Assembly (NCBI RefSeq): GCF_007858535.1
Contig: NZ_CP040174.1
Location: 3,224,001 to 3,288,000, forward strand
Origin: Arthrobacter sp. UKPF54-2
GTDB lineage: Bacteria > Actinomycetota > Actinomycetes > Actinomycetales > Micrococcaceae
Direction of reading: 5' to 3'
DNA length: 64,000 nt
The position numbers and the translations under genes are program-made. Below are positions 15,113 through 22,965 of the stretch, in pieces. Under the pieces are notes generated by a model. The model ran no database searches and was not told the DNA's origin. It saw nothing but the letters and a program-made list of their open reading frames with translations. Position 1 is the first letter of the stretch; each line of letters starts with the position of its first letter.

Positions 15113-18100
15113 CTACCCGCGCGCCAGCAGCGGCTCGGCCTGCGCCACTGCCTGATCGAGGTCAAGCAGGCCATCGTCCGGGCTGACGTCCTCCGGGTTG
15201 TGCGTCACCAGGACCACGGTGCGGCCGGCCAGCCCGCGGCGCAGTTCGCCCAGCATCGCCCGGCCGGCCTCCGCGTCCAAGTGGGCCGTGGGTTCGTCGA
15301 GCAGTATGACATCCGCGCCGGTCAGGAGCGTTCGCGCCACGGCCAAGCGCTGCCTCTCCCCGCCGCTGAGAAAGGCGCCGCCCGGGCCGATGGGGGTGTC
15401 CAGGCCGCCGTCGAGCCCTCTCAGCAGCGGCTCGAGGCCAACGGCGGACAACGCCTCGGCCAGTCGCCGCTCAAGCTCCGCGGCCCTGGCCGCCGCCGGG
15501 AGTTCCCCTTCCGGAAGTCCCAGCATCAGGTTCCCCCGGATGGTCGAGTCGAACAGGTGTGCTTCCTGCGGGCACCAGGCGGCGCGGCCGGTGACGAGCA
15601 GCTGACCCTGCGCCGCCGGCAGGAAGCCGAGCATGGTGGCCAGCAGGGTGGACTTGCCGGACCCGGAGGCGCCCGTCACCGCGAGCCAGCGGCCGGGTTC
15701 GGCGCTGGCGGACAGGCCGCTGAAAACCCGTCCGCCGCCCGGCCACGCCGCCGCCAGGTTCTTCAATTCCACGCCGGGCCGTCCGCCGGGCCGTGCGGCC
15801 GGCGGCACGGCACCGGCCGCTTCCGTTTCCTCCACCGCGAGGACCCCGGAGGCACTGATGCGCCGCAGCACGGACCGCAGCGCCGGGTACTGCCGGACCG
15901 CCGTCGTGATGGCGGCGTACGGCTCCACCAGCGCCAGCTGCAGCAGCACGACGACGGCGACGGTCGCCGGTTCCGCGGCGCCGCGAAGGACCAGGGGCGC
16001 GGCGAGGACGGCGCTGGCCAGCGCGGCGGCCCCGCAGGCCAGGACGGTGAGCCCCTGCCCGAGGCCTTCGGCGAGGGCGGACCGCTGCGACGCGGCCGTC
16101 GCGGCCCGGTCGGCCCGGCGGATGGCGGCCAGGACCGGGGTGCCGACGCCGTTCGCGTGCAGCTCGGCGCGGGCGTCCAGGGCGGCGGCGACGCGGCGCA
16201 GCACCCCGGAGCGCAGTTGTTGTTCGGCGCGGGCGGACATCCGGTCCGCGAGCAGCGCCAGGGCCGGGGCGGCGGCGAGGCTGACGGCGGCGCCGGCCAC
16301 AACGGCCGGCAGGGCTGCCGGCAGGAGCAGCCCGATCCCCGCGGCGGCGGCCGCCCCGGCGGCCAGGGCCGTCAGCGGCGGCAGGACCACGCGCGGCAGC
16401 AGCTCCCGGACGGTGTCAACGTCGTCCACGACGGCGCCCAGGACGTTGCCGCCCTGGAGCAGCCGGCGCAGCGACAGCGCCCGCCGGCTCAGCGACTCCC
16501 ACAGCCGGCCGCGGAGCCGTGTCAGCGCGGTGAAGACGGCGTCGTGCAGGAGCAGCCGTTCGGCATACCGCAGGGCGGCCCGGCCGACGCCGAAGAAGCG
16601 CACCCCCACGATGGCGGTCAGCAGGTACAGGATGGGCGGCTGCTCACTGGCGCGGATGATGAGCCAGCCGGAGAGCCCGGCGAGGGCGACGGCGAACAGC
16701 GCGGCCAGGACGCCGACGGCGCCGGCGGCCGCAAATTTCCCGGCGACCGGCGCCAGCAGCCGGCGCAGCTGGGATGCCGCCGTTCCGGCCCCGGCGGCGT
16801 TGTCCGCCGGGTCAACGGCGCCGGAGGGTTCGTCGTCGGTGGGTTCTGCGCCACAGGGGGCGGCAGGAGTGGGGGATGGATGTGCGGGGGCGGCTTGCCG
16901 GGTGCCGGCGGCCGGGGTGGCGGCGGCCGCCGCCGCGGCGCCGCGGGGGCCTACGGCCACCATCCGGTCCGCGAGTTCCCGGGTTTGCCGGTCGTGGGCG
17001 ACCAGCAGCACGGTGGCTTTCCCCCGCAGCCCGGCGATGCTGCGGCTGACCGCGTCGGCCGAGGCCCGGTCCAGGTGGGCGGTGGGTTCGTCCAGGAGCA
17101 GCACCGTGGCGCCGGCCGTGATCCGGGCCAGCCCGCGGGCCACGGCCACGCGGCGCAGCTCCCCCGGGCTGAGCTCGGCGGGGTGCTTCGCGGCAAGATG
17201 GTCCGCCGCGCAGGCGGCGAGGCAGCGCCTGGCTTCGGCAGTGGCTTCGGGGCTGGCCTGCGCCGGCGTCCGGCCCGGGTCGTCGCCCAGGTAGAGCAGG
17301 ATTTCGTCCAGCACGGTGGGCTCCACCATAACGGGGTGCTGCGGCACCCAGGCAACATCCGCCGTCGTGAATCCTTCCAGCTCACCGGTCAGCTCCGTGC
17401 CGGCGCCGGATCCGATGGTGCCGGCCAGCACACCGAGCACGGTGCTTTTTCCCGCCCCGCTCGGGCCGTCCAGGGCGGCAATCTCCCCGGGAGCCGCGGT
17501 GAAGCTCAGCGGGCCGACGGCGGCGTCCGCGCGCCCGGAGTAGCGCACCGCCAACTCCCTGACGGTAATAGCCGGCGGGCCGGCAGGGGCCAGCCCGGCA
17601 GGGGCCCGGCGGGCGGCCGCGTCCGGGACCAGCGGCACCGGCGCGGCGGCGTCGAGCACCTCGGTGGCGTCGGCCAGCGCGGCGCGGCCCTCGTCGCTGG
17701 CGTGGTGGGCGGTGCCGAGTTCGCGCAGCGGGAGGTAGCAGTCGGGGGCCAGGATCAGGGCCAGCAGCCCGGCCTCGAGCGCCATGTCCCCGTGGACCAG
17801 CCGGACGCCGATGAAAACGGCCACCACGGCGACGGAGATCGTGGCGATGAGTTCCAGGGCCAGCGCCGAGAGGAAGGCGGTGCGCAGGGTCCCCATGGTC
17901 TTGGACCGGTAGTCCTCCGAGATGTCTTCGAGGGCCTTGCGCTGGGCGGCGGCGCGGCCCAGGCCAACGAGCACGGGCAGGCCCTTGGCGAGTTCCAGCA
18001 TGTGGCCGGAGAGCCGGGACAGTGCCGCCTGCGCGTCCCGGACCCGGTCCTCGGTGTAGCGGCCGATCAGGACCATAAACAGCGGCACGAGCGGGACCGT

Positions 18101-18574
18101 CAGGACGATCACGACGGCGCTGATCCAGTCGGCGAACAGGATCCGGGCGCCCAGCAGCAGCGGGATGGCGGCGCAGTTCACCAGGGCGGGCAGGAACTGG
18201 GTGTAGTAGTTGTCCAGCGCGTCCAGCCCGCGGGTGGACAGCACGGCGAGGCCGCCGTCGGCCGGGCCGGCGGCGCGGACGCCGCTGCGCAGGGACCGCT
18301 CGAGCAGCCGCGAGCGCAGTTCCTCCTTCACCCCCAGCGCGGCACGGCGGGCGGCCACGGCCTGCGCCCACACGGTCAGCGAGCGCAGCACCACCCCGGC
18401 CAGGCCCCAGCCCAGCTGATCGGCCCAGGCGGGGCTGTGCGCGATCAGACCCACCAGCATGGCCGCGACCGCCTGCCCCATCAGCACCAGGGACAGGGCT
18501 TTGAGGGCCGCGAGCAGCCCCAGCAGGTAGAGCGCGGAGCGGGTGGCGGGGCCGGCGGGGAACTGCGGTTTCAT
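15113..18574 (-). CDS. cydDC: Fused CydDC thiol ABC exporter, cytochrome bd assembly
   Basis: This 1153-residue protein joins CydD (about residues 1-560) and CydC (about 600-1153), usually two genes in proteobacteria. Each half has an ABC membrane domain and an ATPase domain. The CydD half shows Walker A GPSGAGKST, signature LSPGELRRVAVARG and Walker B VLLLDEPTAHLD; the CydC half shows GASGSGKST, LSGGERQRLAVAR and VILLDEPTAHLD. CydDC exports reduced thiols or otherwise conditions the envelope for haem insertion into cytochrome bd. The ATG at 18574 lies 8 bases after the cydB stop, so the gene belongs to the cydA-cydB-cydDC operon. The 197 codons of open frame upstream are a cydB shadow. Confidence 0.93.
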   Translation of the reverse strand: MKPQFPAGPATRSALYLLGLLAALKALSLVLMGQAVAAMLVGLIAHSPAWADQLGWGLAGVVLRSLTVWAQAVAARRAALGVKEELRSRLLERSLRSGVRAAGPADGGLAVLSTRGLDALDNYYTQFLPALVNCAAIPLLLGARILFADWISAVVIVLTVPLVPLFMVLIGRYTEDRVRDAQAALSRLSGHMLELAKGLPVLVGLGRAAAQRKALEDISEDYRSKTMGTLRTAFLSALALELIATISVAVVAVFIGVRLVHGDMALEAGLLALILAPDCYLPLRELGTAHHASDEGRAALADATEVLDAAAPVPLVPDAAARRAPAGLAPAGPPAITVRELAVRYSGRADAAVGPLSFTAAPGEIAALDGPSGAGKSTVLGVLAGTIGSGAGTELTGELEGFTTADVAWVPQHPVMVEPTVLDEILLYLGDDPGRTPAQASPEATAEARRCLAACAADHLAAKHPAELSPGELRRVAVARGLARITAGATVLLLDEPTAHLDRASADAVSRSIAGLRGKATVLLVAHDRQTRELADRMVAVGPRGAAAAAAATPAAGTRQAAPAHPSPTPAAPCGAEPTDDEPSGAVDPADNAAGAGTAASQLRRLLAPVAGKFAAAGAVGVLAALFAVALAGLSGWLIIRASEQPPILYLLTAIVGVRFFGVGRAALRYAERLLLHDAVFTALTRLRGRLWESLSRRALSLRRLLQGGNVLGAVVDDVDTVRELLPRVVLPPLTALAAGAAAAAGIGLLLPAALPAVVAGAAVSLAAAPALALLADRMSARAEQQLRSGVLRRVAAALDARAELHANGVGTPVLAAIRRADRAATAASQRSALAEGLGQGLTVLACGAAALASAVLAAPLVLRGAAEPATVAVVVLLQLALVEPYAAITTAVRQYPALRSVLRRISASGVLAVEETEAAGAVPPAARPGGRPGVELKNLAAAWPGGGRVFSGLSASAEPGRWLAVTGASGSGKSTLLATMLGFLPAAQGQLLVTGRAAWCPQEAHLFDSTIRGNLMLGLPEGELPAAARAAELERRLAEALSAVGLEPLLRGLDGGLDTPIGPGGAFLSGGERQRLAVARTLLTGADVILLDEPTAHLDAEAGRAMLGELRRGLAGRTVVLVTHNPEDVSPDDGLLDLDQAVAQAEPLLARG

Positions 18575-18582
18575 CGGCGGGG

Positions 18583-19632
<1,050 letters not shown>

Positions 19633-19666: not shown

Positions 19667-21265
19667 TTAGTAGGCGAAGGCCAGGACGTCGTCGGCTTCG
19701 GGTTTGCCGGGCGTGCCGCCGGGCGGGGTCCGGTCCTTGTGGTCCTCGGACGGGACGTGGACCAGTTCGGGCATCGCGGACACGACGCCGCCGCGGATGT
19801 ACTTCACCAGCAGCTTCACCTCCACCACCAGCAGCACCGCGTACACGGCGGTCAGCACCACCAGGGAGGTCAGCAGTTCCCCGGCGGACACGCCCGGGGA
19901 CACGGCCGCGGCGGTGAACATAAAGACCTGGTCGATGCCGCTGAGGTCAGGATTGGGCGCCACCACAAAGGGCTGCCGGCCCATTTCGGTGAAGATCCAG
20001 CCCGCGGCATTGGCGCCAAAGGGTGCCAGGATGCCGAACACGGCGAGGCGCATCAGTCCCCGCGAGGCGGGCACGGTCCCCTTGCGGGTGAGCCAGAGGG
20101 CCACGAGGGCGGCGAGGGCGGCCACACCGCCGAAGCCGATCATCATCCGGAAGCCCCAGTAGGTGACCTCCATGACCGGGACGTACTGGATCTCCTGGCC
20201 CGCACGGTCCCCGTAGATCGGGTTGTCCGGCAGGTGGGTTCCGTAGTCGGCCTTGTACCTCTCCAGCAGGCTGTTCACACCCTTGACCTCGGTGGTGAAG
20301 TCTCCCTTGGCCAGGAAGGACAGGATGCCGGGCACCTCGATCACGGCCACGACGTCGTCGCAGTTCTTGGAGCCGACGTTGCCAACGCTCAGGATGGAGA
20401 AGCCGGTGCCGTCGTGGCAGGCGGCCTCGGCGGCGGCCATCTTCATGGGCTGCTGTTCGAACATGAGCTTGCCCTGCAGGTCCCCGGTGATGGCGGTGCC
20501 GGCGAAGGAAATCATTGCGACGACGGCGCCGATCCGCAGCGAGCGGATCCAGACGGCGTGGTCCGCGCGGTCCCGGCCCGGGATGTCCGATTCGCCGGGG
20601 ATGACCGTGCCGTCGGCGCCGACCGTGTCGATGCCGTCGTGGCGGCGGCGCCACAGGTGGTACCAGGCGATGCCAAGCAGGAAGGCCCCGGCGACGGCGA
20701 GGGCGCCGAACAGGGTGTGGGGCACGGCGACGAGGGCCGTGTTGTTGGTAAAGACTGCCCAGGCGTCAGTCATCACGGGCCGGCCGTTGATCATCTCCAC
20801 GCCGACGGGGTGCTGCATCCAGCTGTTGGCGACAATGATGAAGTAGGCGGAGAACACCGAGCCGATAACGGCGATCCAGAGGCAGGCGAGGTGAACGCCG
20901 CGCTTGAGCTGCTTCCAGCCGAAGATCCAGAGGCCAAGAAAGGTGGATTCGACGAAGAACGCCAGCAGCGCCTCCATGGCGAGGGGAGCGCCGAAGACGT
21001 CCCCGACGAAGCGGCTGTACTCGCTCCAGGCCATGCCGAACTGGAATTCCTGCACGATGCCGGTGGCCACACCCATGATGAAGTTGATCAGGAACAGCTT
21101 GCCCCAGAACTTGGTCATCCGGAGGTACTCCGGTTTGCCCGTGCGGTACCAGAGGGTCTGGATCACGGCCACCACCAGCCCCAGGCCGATTGTGAGCGGC
21201 ACCATCATGAAGTGGTAGACGGTGGTGATGCCGAATTGCCAGCGTGCGATTTCCAAGGCGTCCAA
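19667..21265 (-). CDS. cydA: Cytochrome bd oxidase subunit I
   Basis: CydA holds the three haems of the high-affinity terminal oxidase that reduces oxygen to water with quinol. In this 532-residue protein the haem ligands are visible: His18 (VYHFMMVPLT), His183 (VAVPHTLFGA) and Met375 (FRMMIG), with the proton-path glutamates Glu98 and Glu106 (AMEALLAFFVE). The quinol loop residues Lys275 and Glu280 (QQPMKMAAAE) match Lys252/Glu257 of E. coli. The distance from Lys275 to Arg373 is about 40 residues shorter than in E. coli, so this is a short Q-loop enzyme. Two dyad operators lie 31-73 bases upstream of the ATG and suggest repression by the divergent blaI gene product. Confidence 0.95.
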   Translation of the reverse strand: MDALEIARWQFGITTVYHFMMVPLTIGLGLVVAVIQTLWYRTGKPEYLRMTKFWGKLFLINFIMGVATGIVQEFQFGMAWSEYSRFVGDVFGAPLAMEALLAFFVESTFLGLWIFGWKQLKRGVHLACLWIAVIGSVFSAYFIIVANSWMQHPVGVEMINGRPVMTDAWAVFTNNTALVAVPHTLFGALAVAGAFLLGIAWYHLWRRRHDGIDTVGADGTVIPGESDIPGRDRADHAVWIRSLRIGAVVAMISFAGTAITGDLQGKLMFEQQPMKMAAAEAACHDGTGFSILSVGNVGSKNCDDVVAVIEVPGILSFLAKGDFTTEVKGVNSLLERYKADYGTHLPDNPIYGDRAGQEIQYVPVMEVTYWGFRMMIGFGGVAALAALVALWLTRKGTVPASRGLMRLAVFGILAPFGANAAGWIFTEMGRQPFVVAPNPDLSGIDQVFMFTAAAVSPGVSAGELLTSLVVLTAVYAVLLVVEVKLLVKYIRGGVVSAMPELVHVPSEDHKDRTPPGGTPGKPEADDVLAFAY

Positions 21266-21296
21266 GGCAGTCCCTTTGGCTAGGTTCCCGAGAGTT

Positions 21297-21313
21297 TTCT
21301 ACATTGCGTAGAA
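21297..21313. promoter_or_regulatory. BlaI-type operator dyad 1, cydA-proximal
   Basis: The perfect dyad TTCTAC-N5-GTAGAA lies 31 bases upstream of the cydA start codon. It has the same half-sites and spacing as two other copies in this intergenic region. BlaI/CopY proteins bind dyads with TAC/GTA arms. Confidence 0.7.
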
Positions 21314-21321
21314 CTTGTAAC

Positions 21322-21338
21322 TTCTACAGAGTGTAGAA
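21322..21338. promoter_or_regulatory. BlaI-type operator dyad 2, cydA side
   Basis: TTCTACA-GAG-TGTAGAA is the most symmetrical copy (7-bp arms). Its centre is 25 bp from that of dyad 1, so two dimers could bind next to each other over the cydA promoter. Confidence 0.7.
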
Positions 21339-21454
21339 CAAATCCACACCCTCCCGCACCTCAGCGTGGCACGGCGCGCCGGGGCCCGCAATGGAACGGC
21401 AGCGGGGCCCCGGACGCGCGAAACCGCGCCCTTCGCCATGACACGGCGGCCGTG

Positions 21455-21471
21455 TTCTACCTTATGTAGAA
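21455..21471. promoter_or_regulatory. BlaI-type operator dyad 3, blaI side
   Basis: TTCTAC-CTTAT-GTAGAA has the same 6-5-6 geometry and lies 96 bases upstream of the blaI start. A possible -10 element (TAAATT) lies 19 bases downstream, so bound repressor would cover the expected -35 position. This fits autoregulation. Confidence 0.7.
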
Positions 21472-21567
21472 ACTGGACGCAAAACGCGGTAAATTTAACG
21501 CTGAAGTACTCAGCAACCACCCGGCGCAGACACGGCGTCCGGGAGGCACTCACGAAGGACATACGGA

Positions 21568-21954
21568 ATGGCAAGTCTCGGCGAACTGGAACGGGCAGTG
21601 ATGGACCTGCTCTGGGCAGGCCAGGAGGCTGCGACGGCAAACACCCTGCGGGATCTGCTGGCGCAGAGCACGCGGTCGCCCGGCGACACCGCCGGCCACG
21701 AGGGCAAGGACCTGGCCGTGACCACCGTGTTGACCGTTCTTTCCCGGCTTGAGCGCAAGGGCCTCGTGGAGCGCGAACGCGGCACCCGCCCGCACCGCTA
21801 CCAGGCCGTCTCCAGCCGCGCGGACCACACCGCGGAACTGATGCACGAGGTGCTCGGCTCCGCCCCCGACCGCGAGGCTGTGCTGGCGCGCTTCATTGGC
21901 TCCGTGTCCGCGACCGAGGCGGAAACGCTGCGCAAGCTCCTGGGCCGCAGCTAA
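21568..21954 (+). CDS. blaI: BlaI/MecI/CopY family transcriptional repressor
   Basis: This 128-residue winged-helix repressor has the BlaI start ASLGELERAVMDLLW, a recognition region VTTVLTVLSRLERKGLVERE (about residues 51-70) and a helical dimerisation tail. In staphylococcal BlaI the partner protease cuts an Asn-Phe bond in that tail; here Arg108-Phe109 (VLARFIGS) lies at the comparable place. The gene is 6 bases upstream of an M56 protease gene and divergent from cydA. Three matching dyads in the shared region are probable binding sites, so the likely targets are its own operon and cytochrome bd. A purine-rich site (AAGGAC) precedes the ATG. Confidence 0.88.
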   Translation: MASLGELERAVMDLLWAGQEAATANTLRDLLAQSTRSPGDTAGHEGKDLAVTTVLTVLSRLERKGLVERERGTRPHRYQAVSSRADHTAELMHEVLGSAPDREAVLARFIGSVSATEAETLRKLLGRS

Positions 21955-21960
21955 CACCGG

Positions 21961-22965
21961 ATGTTCTGGACCTCATATTTTCTGGCGGTCCTGGCGATAG
22001 CACTGGCCTGGCCGGTGCCTATCCTTCTTTCCCGCGCCCAGTGGCCGGCCCGCTCCCCCTTTACGGCCATGCTGCTCTGGCAGGCGATCGCCCTTGCCGG
22101 CGGCCTGTCCATGATCGGCGCCATGCTCGTCTACGGCCTGGAACCGGTGGGGGACAACCTCCTGGCGGGCCTCCGGGCCCTGGCCGGTATGGTTTTCCGA
22201 AACGACCCCACGACGGCGCTGGGCTTCTGGCACATCTTTGCGCTCTCCGCCGCGGCGCTGCTGAGCGCCCACCTGGTCTTCACCCTGCTGCTGACCTATT
22301 ACAAGATCCAGCGCCAGCGCCGGCGCCACCGCGAGCTGCTGGCGCTGCTGGCCTCCCCGTCGGCCGACGGTCCCCGGACCATGGTGATCAGCCATGACTC
22401 CCCCGTCGCGTACTGCCTGCCGGGCGGCGCCCGCTCGGTCACGGTGCTCTCGGACGGCCTGATGGCGGCCCTGGAACCGGACGAGCTGCGTGCGGTCCTG
22501 ATCCACGAAAACACCCACCTGAGCCAGCACCACCACCTGCTGCTCTGGGCCTTCGCGGCCTGGCGGCAGGCCCTGCCCTGGCTGCCGACCACGCGGCTGG
22601 CCCAGGAGGCGGTCAACTCGCTGATCGAGATGCTGGCCGACGACGTCGCGCTCAAGACCGAGAGCCGGGCCACCCTGATCAAGGCGATCGCGATTGTGGC
22701 GAGCGGTTCCGCCGGCGCGGCCGCTGGCCCGGCCATGCCAGCGGCCCGGATGGCGTTCGGCGACCCGGCTGCGGAGGCCGATGCCGGCCAGCCGGGCGCC
22801 ACCGGGGGTGCCGGTTCGGCGGCGACCACCGCCTCGCGCGTGAGCCGGCTGCTCTCCCCCCAGCCGCCGCTGCCCGAGCCGCTGCGTCTCGCGGTGCTGG
22901 GCGCCTGCCTGCTGCTGCTGGCGGTGCCCACCGCACTGCTGATCGTCCCCGGCCTGCTCGGCTAG
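21961..22965 (+). CDS. M56 family (BlaR1-like) membrane metalloprotease
   Basis: This 334-residue integral membrane protease has about four hydrophobic helices: near the N-terminus (residues 2-24), 35-58, 86-113 and at the C-terminus (309-332). The zinc site is HENTH at 182-186, with Glu223 (EMLADD) as probable third ligand, and the catalytic domain faces the cytoplasm. M56 proteases of the BlaR1 type cleave BlaI repressors after a signal. This one lacks the extracellular penicillin-binding sensor domain of BlaR1, so the signal must be sensed differently, perhaps through the membrane itself. It is the second gene of the blaI operon (6-base gap). Confidence 0.88.
   Translation: MFWTSYFLAVLAIALAWPVPILLSRAQWPARSPFTAMLLWQAIALAGGLSMIGAMLVYGLEPVGDNLLAGLRALAGMVFRNDPTTALGFWHIFALSAAALLSAHLVFTLLLTYYKIQRQRRRHRELLALLASPSADGPRTMVISHDSPVAYCLPGGARSVTVLSDGLMAALEPDELRAVLIHENTHLSQHHHLLLWAFAAWRQALPWLPTTRLAQEAVNSLIEMLADDVALKTESRATLIKAIAIVASGSAGAAAGPAMPAARMAFGDPAAEADAGQPGATGGAGSAATTASRVSRLLSPQPPLPEPLRLAVLGACLLLLAVPTALLIVPGLLG

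Follow-up and report, generated by a model that had tools for sequence, protein, structure and literature searches.

The divergent cydA-blaI locus

The locus described here lies in a window of 64,000 nucleotides from Arthrobacter sp. UKPF54-2 (positions 3224001-3288000 of its single-contig genome of 3.52 Mb). In this window a BlaI-type repressor gene, blaI, is followed by the gene of a membrane metalloprotease and stands divergent from the cytochrome bd gene cydA, and the gap between blaI and cydA holds three inverted repeats (dyads) with the same half-sites. The dyads, the repressor and the genes that they may jointly control are the subject of this report. The features are the following:

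BlaI dyad 1: 21297..21313, no strand assigned, cydA side, TTCTACATTGCGTAGAA, perfect match in pattern search
BlaI dyad 2: 21322..21338, no strand assigned, cydA side, TTCTACAGAGTGTAGAA, perfect match in pattern search
BlaI dyad 3: 21455..21471, no strand assigned, blaI side, TTCTACCTTATGTAGAA, perfect match in pattern search
blaI: 21568..21954, plus strand, BlaI/MecI/CopY-type repressor, 128 amino acids, no cysteine (PF03965, E 2.3e-20)
M56/M48-type membrane metalloprotease (BlaR-like): 21961..22965, plus strand, 334 amino acids, HENTH at 182-186, no sensor domain
cydA, cytochrome bd subunit I: 19667..21265, minus strand (PF01654, E 1.5e-151)
cydB, cytochrome bd subunit II: 18583..19632, minus strand (PF02322, E 1.7e-101)
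cydDC, fused CydD-CydC exporter: 15113..18580 (start approximate), minus strand (TIGR02857 and TIGR02868 in one open reading frame)
Candidate cydA -10 hexamer TACACT: 21330..21335, minus strand, inside dyad 2, chosen by eye from the conserved dyad 2 spacer
Candidate blaI -10 hexamer TAAATT: 21490..21495, plus strand, chosen by eye on column conservation, with a -35 that would overlap dyad 3

All three dyads are 17 bp long and match TTCTAC-N5-GTAGAA with 0 mismatches, which confirms the three dyads of equal geometry reported at 21297, 21322 and 21455 in a preliminary description of this DNA. Their coordinates relative to the start codons also bear out its placement of two on the cydA side and one on the blaI side: the distance to the cydA start codon (TTG, 21265, minus strand) is 31 bp for dyad 1 and 56 bp for dyad 2, and dyad 3 ends 96 bp before the blaI ATG (21568). 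These are the only perfect copies in the window. When up to two mismatches are allowed the window holds five matches, compared to a mean of 0.14 in 100 dinucleotide shuffles, none of which reached five. Unfiltered mechanical open reading frames (ORFs) overlap the cydA-blaI gap, and a consensus scan of this intergenic region found no sigma-70-type promoter. Judged by eye, the conserved dyad 2 spacer would put a -10-like TACACT for cydA inside the putative operator.

The repressor is a member of the BlaI/MecI/CopY family. Its winged-helix Penicillinase_R domain (PF03965) covers residues 4-125 and thus the full length of the protein, with 73.5 bits compared to a cut-off of 22.6, and the nearest solved chain is 2g9w, deposited as a conserved hypothetical protein, which we take to be Rv1846c, the BlaI of Mycobacterium tuberculosis. 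The C-terminal cysteine motif of CopY is absent, the translation having no cysteine, and the NCBIfam model CopY_TcrY gives 26.1 bits versus a cut-off of 121.95. A second Penicillinase_R match in the genome (784787) was considered as a rival BlaI and rejected: its best Pfam match is MarR, and protein search finds a single BlaI.

The protease gene starts 6 bp past the blaI stop codon. As in BlaR1 and MecR1, the product is a membrane-embedded HExxH zinc protease encoded beside a repressor: the HExxH motif is HENTH at 182-186, accompanied by E223, and there are four strong transmembrane (TM)-like segments plus a weaker one at 237-256. It scores above the cut-off of the Pfam M48 family (PF01435, 37.6 bits versus 20.3) and below that of M56, the BlaR1 peptidase (PF05569, E 1.8e-5, 24.5 bits versus 31), and a PDB sequence search gave no match at E up to 0.1. 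Because the protein ends with its last TM-like segment (303-334), it lacks the extracellular beta-lactam sensor of BlaR1, and Pfam found no penicillin-binding or transpeptidase sensor domain in it at E up to 0.001.

Two further features of the cassette were observed. Thirty residues before HExxH, the protease carries a cysteine (Cys152) in an A[YF]C[LVI]P motif that is present in 80 of 80 relatives' loci with organism names (described below) and in 29 further listed loci of actinobacterial M56 proteins, five of them from Micrococcaceae; Cys152 may be a redox or metal switch. On the other side of the gap, CydD and CydC are fused in a single ORF (window 15113-18580).

Conservation of the dyads beside blaI

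The preliminary description had made its proposal dependent on conservation of the dyads upstream of cydA in relatives that keep the pair, and they are conserved. The best 80 of 165 loci from a BlaI scan were kept, with the titles Arthrobacter, Pseudarthrobacter, Paenarthrobacter and, once, Micrococcaceae. At 78 of these 80 named loci cydA and blaI diverge. All but one of these carry exactly three perfect dyads (77 of 78); the exception (L067) has two perfect dyads and one with a single mismatch. At two loci (L028 and L035) the cydA and blaI start codons are 3.8 and 3.5 kb apart and two dyads stay beside cydA. At another two (L029 and L030) there is no cydA within 6 kb and blaI retains its own dyad. 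At these four loci, too, the counterpart of dyad 3 begins 112-113 bp before blaI.

An alignment of 76 sequences (the window and 75 loci, 5 of the 80 being dropped) showed 36 of 36 half-site columns invariant, compared to 34 of 251 other intergenic columns conserved at 95% or more. This invariance is in part a selection effect, because the aligned loci were chosen for three perfect dyads within 450 bp of blaI; the figure of 77 out of 78 is free of it. The number of distinct spacers among the aligned sequences was 43 for dyad 1, 16 for dyad 3 and five for dyad 2, whose spacer is thus conserved.

Association of the dyad with BlaI

A survey of 149 Micrococcaceae genomes gave 132 that contain a perfect dyad and 131 that encode a BlaI (E up to 1e-8). 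Four of the 149, all from genus g11, match BlaI only weakly (4 sites versus 1 for the control) and were excluded from the co-occurrence analysis. The dyad is found in 126 of 127 genomes with BlaI, with 683 sites compared to 59 for the reversed control, and in two of 18 genomes without it, with two sites compared to three for the control. In one Micrococcaceae genome (G145; L164 and L169), neither of the two cydA genes is on the contig of blaI, and a tandem pair of dyads accompanies each of them.

The half-site also varies with residue 55 of the BlaI recognition helix. Leucine or histidine at this position goes with TTCTAC-N5-GTAGAA (family f1, 116/116; f19, 6/6; f6, 3/3; f36, 10/11), and methionine with TACTAC-N5-GTAGTA-like sites (f38, 7/7; f45, 3/3; f22, 6/7; f47, 1/1; f53, 1/1). 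Within f6, three matches lie no more than 200 bp from blaI, two of them with two mismatches, and the perfect tandem dyads there adjoin cydA. The dyad is thus tied to BlaI by co-occurrence, by its retention beside blaI after cydA has moved, and by the covariation of half-site and helix. On these grounds the dyads in the gap are very probably BlaI operators.

Beyond the family, the exact dyad occurs in 56 of 297 genomes of the order: 21 Micrococcaceae, 17 f6, 12 f19, four f15 and two elsewhere, by our own count. We read 48 BlaI loci outside Micrococcaceae, a non-random set of 28 top matches and 20 picked from lower ranks, with flanks of 1.2-1.5 kb. In 22 of them (from f19, f36, f38, f45, f47 and f53) cydA is near blaI, and all 22 are divergent except L258, where cydA comes after the protease gene; Pfam confirmed CydA at one locus each of f36 and f38. 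The BlaI of the seven f22 loci resembles 2g9w by eye, and no cydA adjoins these loci. At three f15 loci (L219, L294 and L295) the same dyad was seen with BlaI/M56 paralogues, and PepSY-TM proteins are encoded near the latter two. The idea that the N5 spacer is a peculiarity of this window was rejected, as N5 dyads are found in loci of other families.

The predicted regulon

The search of the genome and its relatives for further dyads, as proposed in the preliminary description, found seven perfect copies in the genome, and the genes downstream of the sites found include hmp, hemQ, ccs and atp genes. The reversed control with N5 has one copy. The spacer is N5 in all seven perfect copies even when spacers of 0-20 are allowed, a freedom with which the reversed control yields six. 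We rejected chance occurrence of the dyads, to which the shuffles, the fixed N5 spacer, the conservation and the reversed control are all contrary. Three perfect copies are those of the cydA-blaI gap and the other four lie outside composition-filtered ORFs, preceding hmp, hemQ, a histidine phosphatase-resA-ccs cluster and the gene of a 116-amino-acid membrane protein. The hmp gene stands beside an Rrf2-type gene whose homologue in a related genome (G009) resembles NsrR. Eight copies have one mismatch, two of them inside composition-filtered ORFs and six outside; atpI-atpB, qcrC and an ABC-transporter gene each have one of these six upstream, and the other three have no assigned gene. A one-mismatch dyad (genome 493580; L011:1501-1517) stands about 200 bp upstream of a gene that resembles sucC by eye.

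Three of these targets were followed across genera, using one genome per genus and 30 loci from 34 genomes for each gene, with downstream and reversed controls. A site with at most one mismatch is present upstream of hemQ in 19 of 26 genomes with BlaI, in none of the 26 for either control, and in none of four genomes without BlaI. Upstream of atpB/atpI it is present in 21 of 28 genomes with BlaI (controls, one and zero) and absent from the one genome without it; 19 of the 21 sites are 827-1046 bp away from atpB, a position that corresponds to the atpI start in the Arthrobacter genome. The third target, qcrC, is considered below.

In at least one relative the dyad precedes hemQ, hmp, cytochrome c biogenesis genes, ATP synthase genes, qcrC, ctaC, ctaB, SURF1, sdhC or copper genes. 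In eight other genomes, 59 of 62 perfect sites were examined, the three in the cydA-blaI gap of G009 being left out. By our tally, 44 of the 59 precede blaI, or a known gene of respiration, heme, cytochrome c, nitric oxide (NO) detoxification or copper, by at most 350 bp; the identity of these genes rests on Pfam or NCBIfam or on similarity to genes so identified. A computed tally of 53 out of 59 is partly circular because some target queries came from the same loci. Among 13 loci read in f6, the dyad was found at three cydA genes, one flavohemoglobin gene, one CtaG gene and two universal stress genes (one of them assigned by eye).

The 116-amino-acid membrane protein (L195:978-1328; genome 1246977-1247327) has no Pfam or NCBIfam match, is found behind a dyad in four other genomes (L158, L168, L188 and L199), and is by this placement a candidate respiratory gene. 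In two genera a dyad also precedes the gene of another small membrane protein, which matches neither Pfam nor NCBIfam (L200:2069-2467 and L178:2061-2441). The dyad upstream of the ABC-transporter gene (3004017 in the Arthrobacter genome) recurs in L182 and L202, both with a divergent SufR-like regulator gene; at L202 the ABC cluster is followed by ctaA. This setting may join the supply of [Fe-S] clusters and heme A to the regulon.

Discussion

Computation yielded the sites, showed them to be conserved and associated with BlaI, and identified the genes adjacent to them. From these we infer binding, repression, cleavage and a respiratory signal. The explanation that we consider likely is that BlaI governs a regulon of the respiratory chain and is cleaved by the M56 protease when respiration is impaired. 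A BlaI dimer would bind TTCTAC-N5-GTAGAA in the divergent cydA-blaI promoter region, at the perfect sites of hmp, hemQ, the histidine phosphatase/cytochrome c biogenesis operon and the small membrane protein gene, and at the one-mismatch sites of the ATP synthase operon, qcrC and the ABC-transporter gene. It most likely represses its own operon together with these targets, and the adjacent membrane protease most likely cleaves it upon impairment of the respiratory chain, which would derepress the oxidase, heme, cytochrome c and ATP synthase genes together. The signal is expected to act via the protease because BlaI has no cysteine.

Several observations weigh against a regulon of this kind. 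At up to two mismatches the pattern is rarer genome-wide than its reversed control (63 versus 135), and informative sites are limited to those with zero or one mismatch because matching at two shows no enrichment over the control. Seven of 26 genomes with BlaI have no hemQ site, and allowing two mismatches leaves the hemQ count at 19 of 26 while raising the downstream control to four of 26 (reversed, zero). Seventeen of the 21 atp sites read TTCTAT, many with a common spacer, and part of this signal may for that reason be promoter sequence; two of the 21 are also much nearer atpB. A qcrC site was found in only five of 27 genomes with BlaI (both controls zero; zero of three genomes without BlaI), or eight of 27 at two mismatches (controls zero and one). 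Of the 59 perfect sites in the eight other genomes, nine are at genes with an unknown or unclear respiratory link and six have no listed target; ctaB, SURF1 and sdhC were each found once, all in a single genome (G012) with 15 sites; and six of the 13 loci read in f6 have no assigned gene. The co-occurrence of dyad and BlaI (Fisher p 3e-18, uncorrected for kinship) overstates independence because the genomes without BlaI fall in three genera only. Covariation of helix and half-site is not clear in f35 (seven loci: five ties, one TAC and one TTC), and in seven distant loci among the 48 read outside Micrococcaceae (L273-L276 and L279-L281) no such dyad was found, and they were left out of the covariation. 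Finally, the f15 dyad stands by a BlaI/M56 paralogue beside PepSY proteins, outside a respiratory setting, and the motif alone does not, therefore, define a respiratory regulon.

The preliminary description had confined the BlaI circuit to its own operon and the cyd genes. Its operators at both cydA and blaI are very probably correct, and the restriction appears too narrow in view of several other predicted respiratory targets. A narrow cytochrome bd switch, in which BlaI would control only itself and cydABDC while the other copies are due to chance or belong to another regulator, is accordingly regarded as unlikely. It would account for the concentration of three of the seven genome copies in the cydA-blaI gap, and for genera g6 and g14, which also include genomes without BlaI: four BlaI-bearing genomes of these genera carry the cydA-blaI-M56 cassette with a gap site that has one mismatch in one genome and is perfect in three, each of which has no further perfect copy (no search for other one-mismatch sites was made there). 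In these genomes the dyad simply travels with the cassette. It would not account for the intergenic position of the other four copies in the Arthrobacter genome, for the recurrence of the same target genes across genera, or for the absence of hemQ sites in the four genomes without BlaI that were examined.

The same family includes metal sensors, and a CopY-type circuit by which the regulon answers a shortage of copper or heme for oxidase assembly is another improbable alternative. BlaI has no cysteine and hence none of the metal-binding cysteines of CopY, and ATP synthase, hmp and sdhC are more in keeping with respiration at large than with copper. What speaks for a metal circuit is that genes for CopC, CopD-CtaG, SURF1, CtaB and HemQ lie behind dyads in relatives, with CtaA in the same cluster, and that the BlaI regulon of M. 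tuberculosis includes sigC (PMC8265638), which prevents copper starvation (PMC7924339). The protease could nevertheless sense copper or heme as its signal.

We find it very unlikely that the pair serves a classical beta-lactam response, with a protease that senses cell-wall damage or beta-lactams, a BlaI that mainly controls resistance, and cyd as a side target. No beta-lactamase or penicillin-binding protein gene was recognised at the five perfect-site loci of the genome (the genome was not searched for such genes), and the protease does not extend beyond its last membrane segment, nor does Pfam show a penicillin-binding domain in it at the threshold given above. Against these points stand the homology to the BlaI-BlaR pair and the description of M. 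tuberculosis BlaI as the major repressor of blaC (PMC8265638). That the dyads are RNA hairpins or promoter elements and no protein operator is hardly credible, even though dyad 1 may sit in the cydA leader, dyad 2 may hold a -10 hexamer and the atp sites have a conserved spacer, since the spacer length is fixed at N5 yet dyad 1 has so many different spacers, the half-site covaries with the BlaI helix, and sites stand at varied distances upstream of unrelated genes.

A broader proposal can be put forward tentatively: in Actinobacteria the BlaI-M56 pair might be at root a regulator of aerobic respiration acting on the whole chain, beta-lactamase control being a later mycobacterial addition. The M56 protease might then sense the state of the respiratory membrane, perhaps via the A[YF]C[LVI]P cysteine, and would not be a beta-lactam receptor.

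Comparison with known systems

CopY of lactic acid bacteria, a repressor of the same family, senses copper with C-terminal cysteines. Copper genes are among the targets in relatives here, but this BlaI has no cysteines and has a protease partner.

The BlaI-BlaR1 and MecI-MecR1 systems of Staphylococcus aureus (introduced in PMC5473688) likewise place a repressor beside a membrane zinc protease and use TAC/GTA dyads, and they share the autoregulation that we predict here. They differ in their targets, which are resistance genes there and, by prediction, respiratory genes here. Classical BlaI sites are TACA-N2-TGTA, one base shorter, with N4 between TAC and GTA as compared to N5 between the TTCTAC and GTAGAA half-sites. 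In addition, the extracellular sensor with which BlaR1 binds beta-lactams is absent here.

A precedent for the N5 geometry is BlaI_0696 of Clostridium thermocellum, whose DAP-seq motif consists of inverted repeats five nucleotides apart with the half-site GTCTAT (PMC8457756). This protein shifted a probe carrying the motif in gel assays, with a modest difference from the negative probe; each target has two motif matches, and its three-operon regulon is suspected by the authors to respond to antibiotics (PMC8457756). It differs from the present case in its half-site and its small regulon.

The closest likeness is to M. tuberculosis, where BlaI-BlaR is Rv1846c-Rv1845c (PMC5473688, PMC5874750, PMC8265638, PMC12565901). 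There BlaI is reported to bind the cytochrome bd and ATP synthase promoters, and the mycobacterial BlaR lacks an extracellular sensor domain (PMC5473688, citing Sala 2009). Gel shift shows that BlaI binds the promoter of Rv1303, a gene of the ATP synthase operon (PMC12565901), and atpH is, like sigC, a member of the BlaI regulon (PMC8265638). The novelty implied by the preliminary description, of a resistance circuit turned into a respiratory switch, is thus smaller than it seemed. In both organisms BlaI is paired with a BlaR without beta-lactam sensor, and the nearest chain to the BlaI studied here is 2g9w. In M. tuberculosis blaC and sigC are also controlled, whereas here blaI is divergent from cydA and the predicted regulon, unlike the mycobacterial one, reaches heme, cytochrome c, oxidase assembly and flavohemoglobin. 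The half-site here is TTCTAC, compared to TAC(T/G)AC upstream of blaI in six of the seven f22 genomes.

For M. tuberculosis, the absence of a sensor in BlaR leaves the route of the beta-lactam response, in the words of one source, unknown (PMC5473688). A soil genus with a like pair beside cydA, an exact operator and a predicted respiratory regulon makes this question directly testable. Among the papers listed in literature searches that left most subscription journals uncovered, we recognised none on a respiratory BlaI regulon outside mycobacteria, which is weak evidence of absence. If the proposed regulon is real, a single regulator would couple terminal oxidases, heme, cytochrome c and ATP synthase in a large and mainly aerobic bacterial group, and candidate new respiratory genes would be found among its unassigned targets. 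The kind of system is already known; what is added to it is the divergent cydA cassette, the exact operator, the breadth of the predicted regulon and the covariation of recognition helix and operator.

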